Shown piece after piece: positions 5,553 to 54,512 of a stretch of 64,000 nucleotides of DNA. The stretch's first letter is position 1; each line of letters starts with the position of its first letter. This stretch comes from Rhodospirillum sp. (GTDB taxonomy: Bacteria; Pseudomonadota; Alphaproteobacteria; Rhodospirillales; Rhodospirillaceae). Location of the stretch: NCBI GenBank assembly GCA_021741145.1, contig JAIOYK010000006.1, forward strand, positions 62,001 to 126,000, read 5' to 3'. The position numbers were made by a program, and so were the translations under genes. A model generated the notes under the pieces. The model worked only from the letters and a program-made list of their open reading frames with translations, did no database searches and was not told the DNA's origin.

Positions 5553-5683
5553 ATTGGTCCGGGGTCCCGTCCAGGAATGGGCGGGCCTTCGTCACGCAAC
5601 ATTCACCTCAGCGTCAAAAGGGCAATAGGGAAAGCCGGGTAAGGTGAGCACCCATGCGTTCCCCGTCCTCGTGGAGGTCCCCT

Positions 5684-6925
<1,242 letters not shown>

Positions 6926-7016
6926 GGCCCAGAGGGACCCGCGATCGGTAGCGTGACTGCGAAGGGCTGGGAAGGCCCTCTCCTCATCCAGGATCCATTC
7001 CGAGGATCAAACATTG

Positions 7017-7050
7017 AAAAAGGCTCCCGCGTTCGGCGGGAGCCTTTTTT
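7017..7050. terminator. Rho-independent terminator between convergent GDPD and MCP genes (possibly bidirectional)
   Basis: aaaaaggctcccgc gttcg gcgggagcctttttt: near-perfect GC stem flanked by an A-run and a T-run. Confidence 0.93.
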
Positions 7051-7138
7051 CTCTTATCTCGACAGTGCCGGAATCCCGATCGGTCGCCCTGTCCAACCGC
7101 GAAAGCAGGTCCCCTTCCGCCGACAATGCGCCAGCGTC

Positions 7139-8818
7139 TTAAGCGGATCGCACATTCGTGAGGAAAGCCTCGACCTTACTCCGCAAGTCGTCGGTTTCCC
7201 GAGACATTTCACCGACGGCGGACAAAACATCCTTCGCCGCCTCTCCGGTGGACGATACCGCCTGTGTCACGTCCCCGATATTCGAGGACACATCCTGGGT
7301 TCCCACCGCCGCCTGCTGAACATTGCGGGCGATTTCCTGGGTCGCCGCCCCCTGCTCCTCCATGGCGCTGGCGATACTCGTGGAAATTTCGTTGATTTGG
7401 CCAATAACATGACTGATGCCGCCGATGGCCTCCACCGCATCCTTCGTCGCCTGCTGGATCCCGGAAATTTGACTGGTGATCTGGTCGGTTGCCTTGGCCG
7501 TTTCGTTGGCGAGGCTCTTCACTTCGGAAGCCACCACGGCGAAGCCCTTCCCGGCATCCCCCGCCCGCGCCGCCTCGATCGTCGCGTTCAAGGCAAGAAG
7601 GTTGGTCTGACTGGCGATATCATTGATGATATTCACCACATCTCCGATCTTCTGCGCGGCCTCGGCCAGCCCCCGCACCTGCTGGTTGGTCCGTTCCGTC
7701 TCGCTAACCGCCGTTTCGGCTATTTGCGTTGACTTGCTCACCTGCCGGGTGATCTCGGTGATCGAAGCACTCAGTTCCTCGGCCGCGGTCGCGACGGTTT
7801 GCACATTGGCCGAGGCCTGATCGGAGGCGGAGGCGACAGCCAGGGATTGACGGCTGGTCTGTTCCGCCGTGGCGGTCATCGAGGTCGCCGTCCCCTGGAG
7901 GGATGACCCGGCCATCGCCAGGGATTTCAGGATGACGGACACATCCACGTCGAACCCCCCGGTCAAGGCTTCAAGCGCGGCGGCCCGCTTGCGTTGGGTC
8001 TCGATCTCGGCGTCTTCCTTGATCTTGGCTTCGATGGCCCTGATCATGTTTTCCTTGAAGACCTCGACGGCCTTGGACATGGCACCGATTTCATCGCCCC
8101 GGTCCGTCCCTGGGATTTCCGTTTCCGTATCCCCCGCGGCCAATTGTCCCATGGCCCCCGTCATGGCCTGAATCGAACCGGACACCGTGCGGATAATATA
8201 CCATGCGGCTCCAGCGCCGAGCAGGACGGAGACCACGAGCAGGGCAATGATCAGGCCGCGCGCGAGGAAATAGATCCGATCTCCCGCCTCACTCGCCAAA
8301 GCCGCGCTCCGATCATTCAAGTCGATCAAATCGGTCAAGGTCTTGCTCGCGGCGACGAAGACGGTCTTAGAATTCTCGCGGAACATGCGTGCCGCCTCTT
8401 CGTTCTGGTTTCCCCGGGACAGGGCAATCAGCTTCTTGTTAAGATTGAGGTAATCAGCCCACTGCTCCTGAAATTCCACGAACATCGCCCTCTCCTTTTC
8501 CGAGGAGATGAGCTTATCGTAAGCTTTTATCTCATTCTCAAGAAGGGTTCCCTGCTCTTTCAACGCCACCTCGGCTTGTTCCATGATCGCGGCATTCGTG
8601 GACATCACATGACGCCCTTCCTCGATACGGAAGTCACTCGTGGTGGTGTTGAGAGCACCCACAGCCCGCACGCTGGGAAGCCAATTCTGAGCGATTTCCG
8701 TGGAGGCGTCATTGACCACCGAAATCCGGTTCACGGCGAAAAGCCCCAGACCAACAGTCAAGACAATGAGTAGGGAAAACGCCACTATTAGCTTTACTCG
8801 AATGGTCACATTACGCAT
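7139..8818 (-). CDS. Methyl-accepting chemotaxis protein
   Basis: Two TM helices, HAMP, signalling hairpin 'INDIASQTNLLALNATIEAARAGDAGKGFAVVASEVKSLANETAKATDQI'. Confidence 0.96.
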   Translation of the reverse strand: MRNVTIRVKLIVAFSLLIVLTVGLGLFAVNRISVVNDASTEIAQNWLPSVRAVGALNTTTSDFRIEEGRHVMSTNAAIMEQAEVALKEQGTLLENEIKAYDKLISSEKERAMFVEFQEQWADYLNLNKKLIALSRGNQNEEAARMFRENSKTVFVAASKTLTDLIDLNDRSAALASEAGDRIYFLARGLIIALLVVSVLLGAGAAWYIIRTVSGSIQAMTGAMGQLAAGDTETEIPGTDRGDEIGAMSKAVEVFKENMIRAIEAKIKEDAEIETQRKRAAALEALTGGFDVDVSVILKSLAMAGSSLQGTATSMTATAEQTSRQSLAVASASDQASANVQTVATAAEELSASITEITRQVSKSTQIAETAVSETERTNQQVRGLAEAAQKIGDVVNIINDIASQTNLLALNATIEAARAGDAGKGFAVVASEVKSLANETAKATDQITSQISGIQQATKDAVEAIGGISHVIGQINEISTSIASAMEEQGAATQEIARNVQQAAVGTQDVSSNIGDVTQAVSSTGEAAKDVLSAVGEMSRETDDLRSKVEAFLTNVRSA

Positions 8819-49878: not shown

Positions 49879-49966
49879 GGACTGGTTTCACCATCCCCTT
49901 TTCACTCCCCACCGCCCACGCGCGCTCCTCTCCTTGCCAAGGAGGAGGGAAACGGGAATAGTGTCT

Positions 49967-50125
49967 GCGTTTTCAGGTCGGGGTGGAAGTCCCCACCGGC
50001 GGCATGCGGTGAAATCCGCGAGCCCGCGAGCGCCTTTTCCATGGGGAATGCCGCGAAGGAAAAGGGTCAAGCAGATCAGGTGAGAGACCTGAGCCGACGG
50101 TCATGATCCAGATGGAAGAGAACGC
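49967..50125 (+). ncRNA. FMN riboswitch (RFN element)
   Basis: Conserved blocks 'ggtcggggtggaagtccccaccggcgg', 'gcccgcgagcg', 'ggtcaagcagatcaggtgagagacctgagccgacggtcatgatccagatggaagag'; P1 gcgttttc/gagaacgc. Confidence 0.96.
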
Positions 50126-50173
50126 GCGGCCTTCCCGCCCCATTCCCGTGGCGCGGGGCGGAAGGTTCCGCGC

Positions 50174-50470
50174 GTGATCGCCCGGGATCTGGCGATGACG
50201 GGCCGTTACGGCGCGGTGGTGGCCGCGGCCTTCGTAGTCGACGGCGGCATCTACCGCCATGACTTCGTGGCCCAGACGGTGGTGGATGGCCTGATGCGGG
50301 CGGGGCTGGACAGCGGCGTCCCGGTCCTGTCCGTCTCCCTAACCCCGCATCACTACCAGGAAACGGATCACCACAAGGCGATCCAACGCGACCATTTCGT
50401 GGTCAAGGACCGGGAGGCCGCCGAAGCGGCGTTTCAGGTCCAACGGACACGGGCGAGGATCGCGGCCTGA
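50174..50470 (+). CDS. RibH2-type 6,7-dimethyl-8-ribityllumazine synthase, N-terminally truncated (98 aa; possibly a pseudogene)
   Basis: 'TGRYGAVVAAAFVVDGGIYRHDFVAQTVVDGLMRAGLDSGVPVLSVSLTPHHYQETDHHKAIQRDHFVVKDREAAEAAFQVQRTRARIAA' matches the C-terminal part of RibH2; GTG start at 50174 with SD-like ggaagg. Confidence 0.85.
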   Translation: MIARDLAMTGRYGAVVAAAFVVDGGIYRHDFVAQTVVDGLMRAGLDSGVPVLSVSLTPHHYQETDHHKAIQRDHFVVKDREAAEAAFQVQRTRARIAA

Positions 50471-50510: not shown

Positions 50511-51698
50511 TCACGCCGCCCGGAACTCAATCGTATCGCCATTCCCCAGGTAGACGTCCGTCTTCGACCCGTTCCGCGCCGAGCCCCGCACCACCGGGTA
50601 TCCGGCCGCGACGAATTTCCGCGCCGTGACCTCGCCGGTGCAGTGGTTGCAGCCGACCTTCTCGAAGCCGTATTCCTTCAGGGCGTAGACCAAATCATCG
50701 TACTTGGGATCCCAGTCGTCGAAGGGGCTGATGTGCAGGCCCCCATACAGCCCATGGAACTTCTCGAACGCCACTTCCTTCAGGGCCGTTTCGGCGAATT
50801 GGATGATGCCCTGGTGGCAGCAACCGGTGATGGAGACCAGACCGGCCCCCGCCACGTTCACATAGAGGCTCTGTTCCCCATAGACCCGGCAGATGATCGG
50901 CACGGGGAAGGTATAACTCGCCACGCCGGGCATGATTTGGTGCAGACCCGCCGCGTGGGTCACCAGCTTGCCCCGGTGGCCGCTGTCGGCGATGTACTGG
51001 AGGCCCTCCTTATAGAACCCCTCGGGGATATGGGTCTCGATGGTGGGGTCGTACTTATAGGTCACCGGCAGACCCCAGAAGTGATCGAAATGCTCGTGGC
51101 TCAGCACCAGCATGTCAATCTCGTGGTTGGCCAGCATGCGGTCGATGCCCTCTCGCTGGAAGGCCTTGTCCATCCAATCGTAGGACCAACCGCTATCCAG
51201 CAGGATCCGCTTTGTCTCCCCCTCCATGGTCTCGATCTCGACCAGGGCCGCGAAGCCTCCGGCGTTCTCCGGATGGACGGCGTTTTCCATCTGGTAGTCC
51301 CAGGCCTTTTCCAGATTGCCCGGGATCAGGCTTTTGATGGGACGGATGCCGTCCTCGTAACTGCCGCTGGCCAGCTTGCCCCCCTTCGTCGAGAAGGGCG
51401 CCCAGTTGTAGGTATATTGGTTGACCAGCAGGCCCCCGGCGCCCCGGATGTCCCCCATCAGCGTGCCGTTCTCGAACCAGCTCGTCTCGCTGATGTTGGT
51501 CACCTTTACGCCGCGCACCAAACCAATGTCCTTGCGGGCCGTCTGGGCACGGGGGAAGTGCTTGTCGCGCAGGGATGAATGGGAATAGCCCGCCATCATC
51601 CCCAGAAGCCCGATGGCCGCTCCGGCCGCCGTGCCCCGGAAGAAGGCGCGGCGAGACGCGAGCGGGGTCCCGGTTTCCGTTTTCTTGTTGGTTGACAT
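50511..51698 (-). CDS. Tat-exported MBL-fold metallo-hydrolase
   Basis: Twin-arginine 'ASRRAFFRGTAAGAAIGLLGMMAG'; 'SHEHFDHFWG' HxHxDH motif; 'TGCCHQG', 'GGLH', 'GCNHCTGE'. Confidence 0.88.
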   Translation of the reverse strand: MSTNKKTETGTPLASRRAFFRGTAAGAAIGLLGMMAGYSHSSLRDKHFPRAQTARKDIGLVRGVKVTNISETSWFENGTLMGDIRGAGGLLVNQYTYNWAPFSTKGGKLASGSYEDGIRPIKSLIPGNLEKAWDYQMENAVHPENAGGFAALVEIETMEGETKRILLDSGWSYDWMDKAFQREGIDRMLANHEIDMLVLSHEHFDHFWGLPVTYKYDPTIETHIPEGFYKEGLQYIADSGHRGKLVTHAAGLHQIMPGVASYTFPVPIICRVYGEQSLYVNVAGAGLVSITGCCHQGIIQFAETALKEVAFEKFHGLYGGLHISPFDDWDPKYDDLVYALKEYGFEKVGCNHCTGEVTARKFVAAGYPVVRGSARNGSKTDVYLGNGDTIEFRAA

Positions 51699-51767
51699 GA
51701 TCTGTCTCCCTGTTCACCCCGCTCCTTTCCCCCTCCCAAGGACGGGGAAAGGAGCGGATCCGATGAC

Positions 51768-51887
51768 TTACGTGATGATCCAGGGCAGGGCCGCCAGTTT
51801 GGGCAGCAGAGCCACGATGGCGAAGTAGACGGCGACACCGAGCAGGAGTCCCAATCCCGCGCCACCCAGGAAAGCCGTGTTCTTCAT
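51768..51887 (-). CDS. 39-aa single-TM microprotein
   Basis: Own translation: MKNTAFLGGAGLGLLLGVAVYFAIVALLPKLAALPWIIT; RBS-like ggagaa upstream; sits between two co-oriented genes. Below the ORF-track length cutoff. Confidence 0.65.
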   Translation of the reverse strand: MKNTAFLGGAGLGLLLGVAVYFAIVALLPKLAALPWIIT

Positions 51888-51914
51888 GGCCGTTCTCCTT
51901 TCAGGGTCCAGCGG

Positions 51915-53252
51915 TCACTCGGCGGGTGCCGGAGTTCCGGGGTCTTGGGTCGTGGCCTTCGCCTCGGCGGTGGCCCGGGCCGCCCGCTCGGCGGCCTTGG
52001 AGGGGACCAGTTTCCAACCGGGGTAGTTGTCCATGAACCAGTGATTGATCAGCAGGATGTTGATGTACCAGATGGTCGGGATCATCGGGAACTGCTGGGG
52101 ATGGCTGTAGCCCTTCTGGGTGCCCAGAACGAGGTGGGAGAAGTTGTAGTACAGCCAGTAGATCACCGCGGCGCCCACCACGGTCACCAGGGTGCGGATG
52201 ACAACCCGGGCGATGGGGCTCTCCAGCTTGGTGGGCCAGTTGTTGAAGTAGAAGGTCAGCGCCAGGGCGGGCAGCAACCAGAAGATCATCATCTCGCCCA
52301 CGTGCAGCCAGCGCCAATCGGGCGCGAAATCCCGCCGCGTGCCGCGCACGGCCTCGCCCCACCACAGGTCCTGGGCGAAGTACAGGAACAGGTGGCAGGC
52401 CCAAGCGATGGCGATGATGCCGAAAAACGTGGCCAGCCGCCGGGTCCAGTCATGCGTGATCAGCTTGAAGGGATAGCGCTCCCAAATGGTCTCCACCAGC
52501 CAGACCACGACCGTGCAGCACATGATCCAGGAAATGTGGAAATTACCGCTGACCGTGTCGGCGAAGGTCTCCCAATAGGGCGGGGTGATGCCAGTGAATT
52601 CCTGCCAAGGATAGTACAGGATGGCCATGTGACTGTGCATGGTCATGAAGTACACGATCGTCGACAGGAAGAAGGTGATCAACAGGATGGTCAACCCTTG
52701 CACGGGTTGGCCCTCGTTCTTCCACGGCGCGCGTTCCATGGCCACCACCCAGGAGGGTGACAGCCAGCTCGCGATGGCCGCGAACATGAGGATGGCGAGC
52801 GCCGAATACTCCTCGGCGAAGAATTCCGTCACCCGGTCCAGCTTGGCCAGTTGGTCGGGGTTGAAATAGGCGATGGCGAAATTGCCGAGCAGGTATTCGA
52901 AGAAGCCCTTGATCACCAGAAGCAACAGTGCCACGGAAATTCCGGTGAGCACGACCCCCTTGAGGACCGGATGGGCGGTCTCCAGCCAGACCCGTTTGAA
53001 GGGCCAGTAATTGAAGATATAGACCATCCAGATCAGCATGATCAGCAACCAGCGGGTGTAATTGTACCCCACGTAGGGGGTGTACAACCGCATCAGCCCC
53101 CGGGGATCCTGGAAGATCCACCAGGTGGCGTAAAACAGGGCCGTGACCACGATCAGATTCACGATTTGTGGCAGGGGCGCGGGCCAGCGCGGGACGAGGG
53201 TCCTCTCCTCCAGATAGCCCTCCCCATACCGTTCAAGCGGTTGGGTCGACAT
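51915..53252 (-). CDS. Multi-pass membrane protein of unknown function, rich in Trp/Tyr/His
   Basis: 445 aa, about 10 or more hydrophobic segments; His in or near TMs ('MTMHSHMAILYYPW', 'GNFHISW', 'WACHLFLYF', 'WRWLHVGEMMIFW', 'NFSHLVLG', 'LLINHWFMDNYPGW'). Confidence 0.85.
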   Translation of the reverse strand: MSTQPLERYGEGYLEERTLVPRWPAPLPQIVNLIVVTALFYATWWIFQDPRGLMRLYTPYVGYNYTRWLLIMLIWMVYIFNYWPFKRVWLETAHPVLKGVVLTGISVALLLLVIKGFFEYLLGNFAIAYFNPDQLAKLDRVTEFFAEEYSALAILMFAAIASWLSPSWVVAMERAPWKNEGQPVQGLTILLITFFLSTIVYFMTMHSHMAILYYPWQEFTGITPPYWETFADTVSGNFHISWIMCCTVVVWLVETIWERYPFKLITHDWTRRLATFFGIIAIAWACHLFLYFAQDLWWGEAVRGTRRDFAPDWRWLHVGEMMIFWLLPALALTFYFNNWPTKLESPIARVVIRTLVTVVGAAVIYWLYYNFSHLVLGTQKGYSHPQQFPMIPTIWYINILLINHWFMDNYPGWKLVPSKAAERAARATAEAKATTQDPGTPAPAE

Positions 53253-53298
53253 GATGGCCTCCTACTGTCCAGATGGGACACGTGGGCCGCTCCACGGG

Positions 53299-53676
53299 TC
53301 AGCCGATAGGGTCCTCCTTCACGGGGCTGGCGGGTGGGGGGGCCGGTTCGCGCGCGGGAACGGGGGGCCGTTCCTGGCGCGAGAAAATCTCGCGGGCCAG
53401 ATCGATGGGATCCCTGCCCCGGGGGTCGATGCCCAGGCGGGCGACCTCCTCGGCGAGCAGGGGCCGGATCTCGGCCAAAAGGGTGTGGCAGTTTTCGAAG
53501 GAGCCGAAAAAGACATCCATGGAATCGGCTTCGGATCCAGATGCCGATCCGGTATCCCGGTCGCTATCCTCGCCGATATCCTCGAGGGCGGCCAAGGGCT
53601 CCTGGACGACCTCCAGGGCGCGGCTCAGGCCGCCCCGCAGCAGATCGCGCCGGGGCAAGGGGGGTGGGGGTGTCAT
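53299..53676 (-). CDS. Small hypothetical protein (N-terminal PRRDLLRGG, Pro-rich C-term)
   Basis: ATG at 53676 overlaps the upstream gene stop (ATGA); co-oriented in the cluster. Confidence 0.65.
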   Translation of the reverse strand: MTPPPPLPRRDLLRGGLSRALEVVQEPLAALEDIGEDSDRDTGSASGSEADSMDVFFGSFENCHTLLAEIRPLLAEEVARLGIDPRGRDPIDLAREIFSRQERPPVPAREPAPPPASPVKEDPIG

Positions 53677-54512
53677 GGCGTCCCCTCCCCTGTCCCGTGG
53701 TGGTGGCTTTGATCGTGGTGGGGGGGGCCGTCCTCCCCGGCGCAATGGGAGCAAAAGACACCGTCGGCCCCTGTGAACCCCAGGAAGGGGGCATCCCACC
53801 AACCGGGTGGGATCCATTGGTCACCGACAGGAGGTTCCGCCGCGGGCGTGCCAAACGCCACGCGCAAGGCCGTGCCCCTGGCTTCGCTCCGACGGACCGC
53901 GGACTGGGGTCCGCCATCGCGGGCCAAGGCCTGGCCGCGGATCAGCAGATCGAGCACCCGCCACCCCGCGTGCCAAGGCGACTCCACGGGACCCCGGGGG
54001 TCCACATGGGGCGGATCGGAGGCCCCGGACAGGGTGGCGCTCAGGTGGCCCGCATGACCCAAGGTGACGGTGAGCGCGGCCATCAGAAAAGCGTCCCCGG
54101 GCAGATGGGGCAAGGCCCGGTCCGAGGGAATTCCCTCCGCGGAAAACAGGGGAGGTGTCCGCAGGGTGCGCTCGCCATGATCGAGCAGGGCGTCCGCCGG
54201 ATCGGAGCCGTCGGCCCGGGGGAAAAGATGCACCCAAAGGGCCAAGCGATTGGGTCGGGGCGCGGCGACCTCACGCAACAGAAACAGACCCGGCGCACCG
54301 TCAAGCCAGAACATCACCGCGTGGGCGCCCGCGTTGGTCACCACCGGATGAATATGACGCAGACCCGCCCAGCGCGCGGCCTTGGGCCGCATGGTCAGGG
54401 CATGTAGGCCGGTTTCCACGAACCGCCCCCAAGGGGAGGCGATGGCGCCTGGCCCAATGAGCTGGACCCGTTTGATTCCGAAGGACGATCCGACCATTGT
54501 CGCCGCTCCCAC
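53673..54512 (-). CDS. Hypothetical protein with CxxC and His-rich C-terminal tail
   Basis: C-term 'FTGADGVFCSHCAGEDGPPHHDQSHHHGTGEGTP', a potential metal-binding tail; translationally coupled to the next gene. Confidence 0.7.
   Translation of the reverse strand: MGAATMVGSSFGIKRVQLIGPGAIASPWGRFVETGLHALTMRPKAARWAGLRHIHPVVTNAGAHAVMFWLDGAPGLFLLREVAAPRPNRLALWVHLFPRADGSDPADALLDHGERTLRTPPLFSAEGIPSDRALPHLPGDAFLMAALTVTLGHAGHLSATLSGASDPPHVDPRGPVESPWHAGWRVLDLLIRGQALARDGGPQSAVRRSEARGTALRVAFGTPAAEPPVGDQWIPPGWWDAPFLGFTGADGVFCSHCAGEDGPPHHDQSHHHGTGEGTP

Follow-up and report, generated by a model that had tools for sequence, protein, structure and literature searches.

The window, that is, the whole 64,000-nucleotide stretch of Rhodospirillum sp. 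DNA that was analysed, carries at 50511-54512 a compact cluster of five genes (Table 1). A preliminary description of this DNA had listed five co-oriented genes here, the second translationally coupled to the first and the first encoding a 279-aa protein with a CxxC/His-rich tail. All five open reading frames (ORFs) were confirmed on the minus strand at these coordinates, the small gene and the 279-aa gene share a 4-base ATGA overlap, and the tail is present (CSHCAGEDGPPHHDQSHHHG). The window membrane protein and MBL protein share 54-75% identity with homologs across many genera. Because the membrane protein, the MBL protein, the small protein, the N-domain protein and the microprotein all recur in other genomes, sequence comparison indicates that the five ORFs are not chance ORFs. 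Beside the cluster lies an FMN riboswitch with a lumazine synthase (ribH) ORF immediately after it (49965-50470). This ORF matches only profile positions 63-158 of 166 and, because the match is partial and the same genome yielded no second ribH copy, the gene may be cut short here or the assembly may be in error.

Table 1 Genes of the cluster and their predicted products (positions in the window)
Product	Position	Strand	Length	Features
N-domain protein	53673..54512	-	279 aa as first listed; likelier start is the ATG at about 54498	Stand-alone form of a ~300-aa domain found elsewhere ahead of a COG0523 G3E GTPase; C-terminal CSHC/His-rich tail
Small protein, RRxFF/RRDLL type	53299..53676	-	125 aa	Family present at this position in 46/81 loci
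Polytopic membrane protein	51915..53252	-	445 aa	10 predicted TM helices, the 11th from the microprotein
Microprotein	51768..51887	-	39 aa	Last TM helix of the membrane protein, on a separate ORF
MBL-fold metallohydrolase	50511..51698	-	395 aa	Tat motif RRAFF; HEHFDH; GCNHCTG

To describe the distribution of the cluster, we followed its genes through other genomes. Of 148 related genomes, 17 carry the membrane protein, and of 386 genomes drawn evenly from the class one does, namely its own. A scan at one genome per species returned 165 loci, of which 80 were fetched; the counts below are over these 80 plus the window, and several of the absences among the 81 are contig ends. Judged by the record titles of the 80 fetched loci, the carriers are mostly sulfate-reducing or syntrophic deltaproteobacteria, and the others include alphaproteobacteria, Campylobacterales/Sulfurospirillum, Deferribacteraceae, Spirochaetia, Bacteroidales, Parasutterella and Accumulibacter. 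The carriers appear to be scattered and mostly anaerobic bacteria. Anaerobic ribonucleotide reductase, tried as a marker of anaerobic life, was present in 5 of 17 relatives with the membrane protein and in 10 of 131 others, and was set aside as too weak. No homolog of the membrane protein was found in viral contigs and plasmids.

In other genomes, the cluster is larger and includes genes for a GntR/FCD regulator, a PAS protein, a GTPase domain and ExbB-ExbD-TonB. Most commonly, a PAS protein and a GntR/FCD regulator come first, then the small protein, the membrane protein and the MBL protein, followed in some loci by a small predicted periplasmic protein and then by an N-domain/GTPase fusion, ExbB, ExbD and TonB. 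The MBL gene directly follows the membrane protein gene in 80 of 81 loci and the N-domain accompanies the membrane protein in 71; a GntR/FCD regulator gene adjoins in 49, a PAS protein gene lies on the same strand in 33, and ExbB, ExbD and TonB are each present in 16. Some deltaproteobacterial loci have a Nitro_FeMo-Co-type gene and an adjacent PAS-sigma54 regulator in place of the GntR gene. In L024, the N-domain/GTPase fusion (5576-7534, minus strand) lies upstream on the opposite strand rather than downstream of the MBL gene. The predicted periplasmic protein between the MBL protein and the GTPase fusion has ~100 aa per repeat, sometimes doubled; it is present in L028, L030, L034, L035, L038, L042, L044, L049, L056, L057, L060 and L072 and matches no Pfam family above cut-off. 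ZIP-transporter islands lie upstream of the cluster in L062, L024 and L042, and the L062 island also holds Nitro_FeMo-Co-like, MinD-like ATPase, radical SAM and MOSC genes, and the gene immediately ahead of the small protein there encodes a cytosolic MBL protein.

Presence and absence tell the same story as gene order. Among the 148 related genomes, 17 contain a strong MBL match (>450 bits) and 16 of these also contain the membrane protein; the 17th (G061) has the MBL protein and the N-domain, and its MBL match begins at a contig end. The N-domain is absent from every one of these genomes that lacks both the membrane protein and the MBL protein. Weak MBL matches in the other related genomes are solo paralogs without a Tat signal or short partial matches. 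Three solo MBL paralogs (L122, L123 and L124), all in one related family, are non-exported proteins without a Tat signal, with unrelated neighbours and no membrane protein nearby. The co-occurrence of the cluster genes, on which the preliminary description had staked its reading, is therefore borne out both by the neighbourhood of the 81 loci and by the 148 related genomes. We also considered that an orphan MBL gene might simply lie next to unrelated membrane genes, as the window genes outside the cluster are indeed unrelated to it; however, the order is conserved in about 80 loci and presence and absence are shared across the 148 genomes, and we rejected this extremely improbable explanation.

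The MBL protein scores 26.1 bits against Pfam Lactamase_B (cut-off 22.7) and contains HEHFDH, placing it in the MBL superfamily; its relatives among PDB sequences are 7dck, 2p4z and 3h3e (E 9e-13 to 7e-7). The MBL fold noted earlier stands, and the Cys-rich GCNHC is part of the conserved family motif GCNHCTG. The N-terminus has a twin-arginine motif, kept in 79-80 of 80 sequences, and a hydrophobic helix, and on this signal the protein is a predicted Tat substrate. Within the Tat region, G22, G26, G30, M35, S39 and Y40 are kept in 78-80 of 80 MBL sequences, and the complete pattern of RR, G22-G26-G30 (GxxxGxxxG) and M35-G-x-Y-S-Y is kept at 76-80 of 80, except for Y38 (65, otherwise mostly F). 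Such a pattern is unusual for a cleaved signal and suggests that the predicted signal stays uncleaved as a packed membrane helix or anchor. An AxA-like triplet is present where cleavage would fall in 39 of 79 MBL proteins, about half of them, so that the signal may instead be cleaved.

The 445-aa membrane protein matched nothing in Pfam, NCBIfam, PHROG or PDB sequences. To look for relatives by fold, we modelled the fused relative L048 with AlphaFold2 from a 79-row alignment (pLDDT 85.8, pTM 0.88); the best Foldseek match in the PDB had an E-value of 0.084 and a TM-score of 0.18, which is no fold match, and viral models gave none. It therefore falls in no known family of polytopic transporters or enzymes by Pfam, NCBIfam, PHROG, PDB sequence or fold, and the match to a characterised transporter or enzyme that would have spoken against the preliminary description was sought and found by neither sequence, profile nor fold. 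The 39-aa microprotein had been described as a component in its own right. Its ORF is real; in most homologs its helix is part of the membrane protein, at residues about 437-465, and a 36-41-aa ORF lies at the same place in seven other loci with a short (split) membrane protein. By this correspondence of sequences, the microprotein is the detached last TM helix of the membrane protein rather than an independent subunit.

The helix boundaries of the model and the count of positive residues (K+R 16.5 in inner versus 6.5 in outer loops) predict an N-in topology. With this topology, the conserved E148, H206, H208, R314, H317 and E320 of the window protein lie on the predicted periplasmic side, as do all of E143, H201, H203, H234, H312 and E315 in L048 numbering. 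Positions conserved at ≥97% account for 87 of 204 positions on the outer side but for only 58 of 206 on the inner side (p=0.0027). In the distant locus L099, with a membrane protein of only 27-29% identity, identical positions are likewise more frequent in outer loops (24 of 79) than in inner loops (8 of 79; p=0.0026). Because in an alternating-access transporter conserved polar residues would be expected all the way across the membrane, we infer that the outer-side conservation fits an active or docking site better, and its concentration towards the periplasm favours an enzyme or a docking site over a transporter. It also bears on the possibility that the membrane protein carries an organic substrate, which the MBL protein would first hydrolyse in the periplasm and the product of which an FCD-type GntR regulator would sense for control. 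The polytopic protein, an MBL hydrolase on the outer side and the FCD-type GntR gene adjoining in 49/81 loci agree with this idea, but it is at odds with the conservation concentrated at the outer face and with the lack of any transporter fold match, it leaves the N-domain/GTPase protein unexplained, and we regard it as improbable.

L099 keeps the MBL protein, the membrane protein and an N-domain protein with a His tail; the small protein between them matches marginally. Next to its MBL gene lie genes for a c-type cytochrome (CxxCH) and a Crp/Fnr-type regulator; the cytochrome (7624-8109) is short, has one CxxCH and gives a weak SorB-like match (E 0.005, below cut-off). Because of these two genes, we kept open a redox reading, namely an anaerobic respiratory or redox enzyme in which a quinone- or heme-linked membrane oxidoreductase has the MBL protein as subunit or maturation factor. 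The His-rich outer face and the carriers, which are sulfate reducers, syntrophs, purple bacteria and epsilonproteobacteria, would suit such an enzyme. However, the cytochrome and the Fnr-type regulator were recognised in L099 only, and of the conserved His only H201, H203 and H312 (L048 numbering) are kept there. Moreover, there was no sequence match to heme-copper or cytochrome-type oxidoreductases and none among the best fold matches listed, and neither sequence nor fold matched heme-copper, NrfD or cytochrome b proteins (NrfD-like TM-score 0.18). We consider this reading unlikely, if slightly less so than transport of an organic substrate.

The window N-domain protein has four orthologs, in loci of Roseospira/Rhodospira, and more distant counterparts in L064 and L099; Cys/His-rich tails end the orthologs in L019-L022 as well as both of these counterparts. 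The GTPase fusions gave no match in a direct BLAST with the 279-aa protein, and the kinship is seen by profile methods only: in a profile-profile comparison, the ortholog profile matched the N-domain of the GTPase fusions with an E-value of 1.4e-12 and 97.7% probability. The fusions match Pfam cobW and CobW_C, and among complete N-domain fusions 61 have the GTPase Walker A motif and 60 the C-[VIA]-C-C motif; they are COG0523 G3E GTPases, while the window protein has no Walker A/CxCC domain and carries its Cys/His tail in the GTPase's place. On these profile matches, the 279-aa protein is a ~300-aa domain that occurs here by itself but is mostly found joined to a COG0523/CobW-type G3E GTPase. 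Because COG0523-like GTPases are encoded elsewhere in the window's own genome, a GTPase could act in trans. The N-domain was modelled with high confidence (pLDDT 95.6, pTM 0.92) and had no match among PDB folds (best E 0.043, TM-score 0.14). Thus, as modelled, both the membrane protein (compared with the PDB and viral models) and the ~300-aa N-domain (compared with the PDB) look like folds without a solved relative.

The GTPase domain in the fusions invites a further explanation, in which the cluster acquires a metal, for example zinc: TonB-ExbBD would drive uptake across the outer membrane, the MBL protein would free the metal from a carrier or store it, the 11-TM protein would take it through the inner membrane, and its recipient would be the N-domain/GTPase protein. 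ExbB-ExbD-TonB in 16/81 loci, a ZIP transporter gene near three loci, a Fur-like gene (identified from sequence) near three loci and the Cys/His tails on stand-alone N-domain proteins are all consistent with this explanation. By contrast, most of the conserved polar residues sit towards the periplasm instead of running through the membrane, the operon maps inspected contain no gene for a receptor or a siderophore, the main regulator linked to the cluster is of the GntR/FCD type and not Zur, and most bacteria without the cluster get metals by other routes. We therefore hold metal acquisition to be a minority possibility, albeit the strongest of the alternatives.

Our working hypothesis, to which we assign a probability of about 0.5, is that the products of the cluster form, at the periplasmic side of the inner membrane, a membrane-bound metallohydrolase complex with dedicated metal delivery. 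Starting from the observed linkage, domain identities and conservation and from the predicted folds, metal loading, anchoring, complex formation and catalysis might proceed as follows. Because the Tat system exports folded proteins, the MBL protein would be loaded with metal in the cytoplasm, where the N-domain protein would help as a dedicated metallochaperone. The loaded MBL protein would then be exported by Tat, and its uncleaved Tat helix would hold it beside the 11-TM protein; physical contact between the two is inferred from their linkage and the conserved GxxxGxxxG helix. The 11-TM protein would bind or position a substrate, perhaps at a His/Glu metal site of its own, and the MBL protein would hydrolyse the substrate held there. 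The small protein is possibly an accessory or assembly factor and, in some lineages, ExbB-ExbD-TonB may provide energy, e.g. for moving substrate or metal across the outer membrane. Against the proposed complex we count that the window has neither a GTPase domain nor the ExbBD-TonB set. The general proposal of the preliminary description, a dedicated membrane-associated metal-dependent enzyme or transporter with assembly factors, remains the best reading apart from its details on the microprotein and the Cys motif, and its metal-delivery part is strengthened because the N-domain is fused to a GTPase elsewhere. More tentatively, the cluster could represent an undescribed class of membrane enzymes, in which a new-fold 11-TM protein with a periplasm-facing His/Glu metal site and a Tat-anchored MBL protein form a two-part active centre for a reaction used mainly by anaerobes, and a metallochaperone that has a new domain at its N-terminus does the loading.

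The gene set is not described in the libraries searched (Pfam, NCBIfam, PHROG) or in open-licence literature, although a description under another name is possible. Open-licence literature on COG0523 with MBL, TonB, Desulfovibrio or Tat contained no description of the operon, and the words "fusion" and "Desulfovibrio" are both absent from the COG0523 survey of Haas et al. 2009 (PMC2770081). At least 80 species-level genome records, spread over several phyla, contain the conserved operon. It centres on a membrane protein and a domain without recognisable fold relatives and brings its own metal-delivery protein, which points to an as yet undescribed biochemical function. The system can be tested in culturable carriers with names, such as Roseospira, Rhodoplanes, Pseudovibrio, Malonomonas and Desulfogranum.

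Several known systems resemble parts of the cluster. By E-value, the top Foldseek matches of the membrane protein were NrfD-like subunits of alternative complex III; at E=0.084, a TM-score of 0.18 and an rmsd of 21 Å, the NrfD-like subunits are not a match. SoxH-like PQQ-linked zinc metallohydrolases (TIGR04558) are MBL proteins named in a multi-gene quinoprotein relay system, but the match here (E=0.095, 11.8 bits) is far below the curated cut-off of 300 bits and no quinoprotein was seen. The MBL hydrolases 7dck, 2p4z and 3h3e share with the window protein HxHxDH and a motif ending in HCTG, whereas the proteins described here also have an additional region at the N-terminus and a Tat signal in which GxxxGxxxG is nearly invariant, and are strictly linked to the 11-TM protein. 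Finally, the fusions have cobW and CobW_C, Walker A and C-[VIA]-C-C in common with COG0523/CobW/G3E metallochaperones; they differ by the additional ~300-aa N-terminal domain without a PDB fold match, and in the window this domain stands without the GTPase and carries a Cys/His tail instead.
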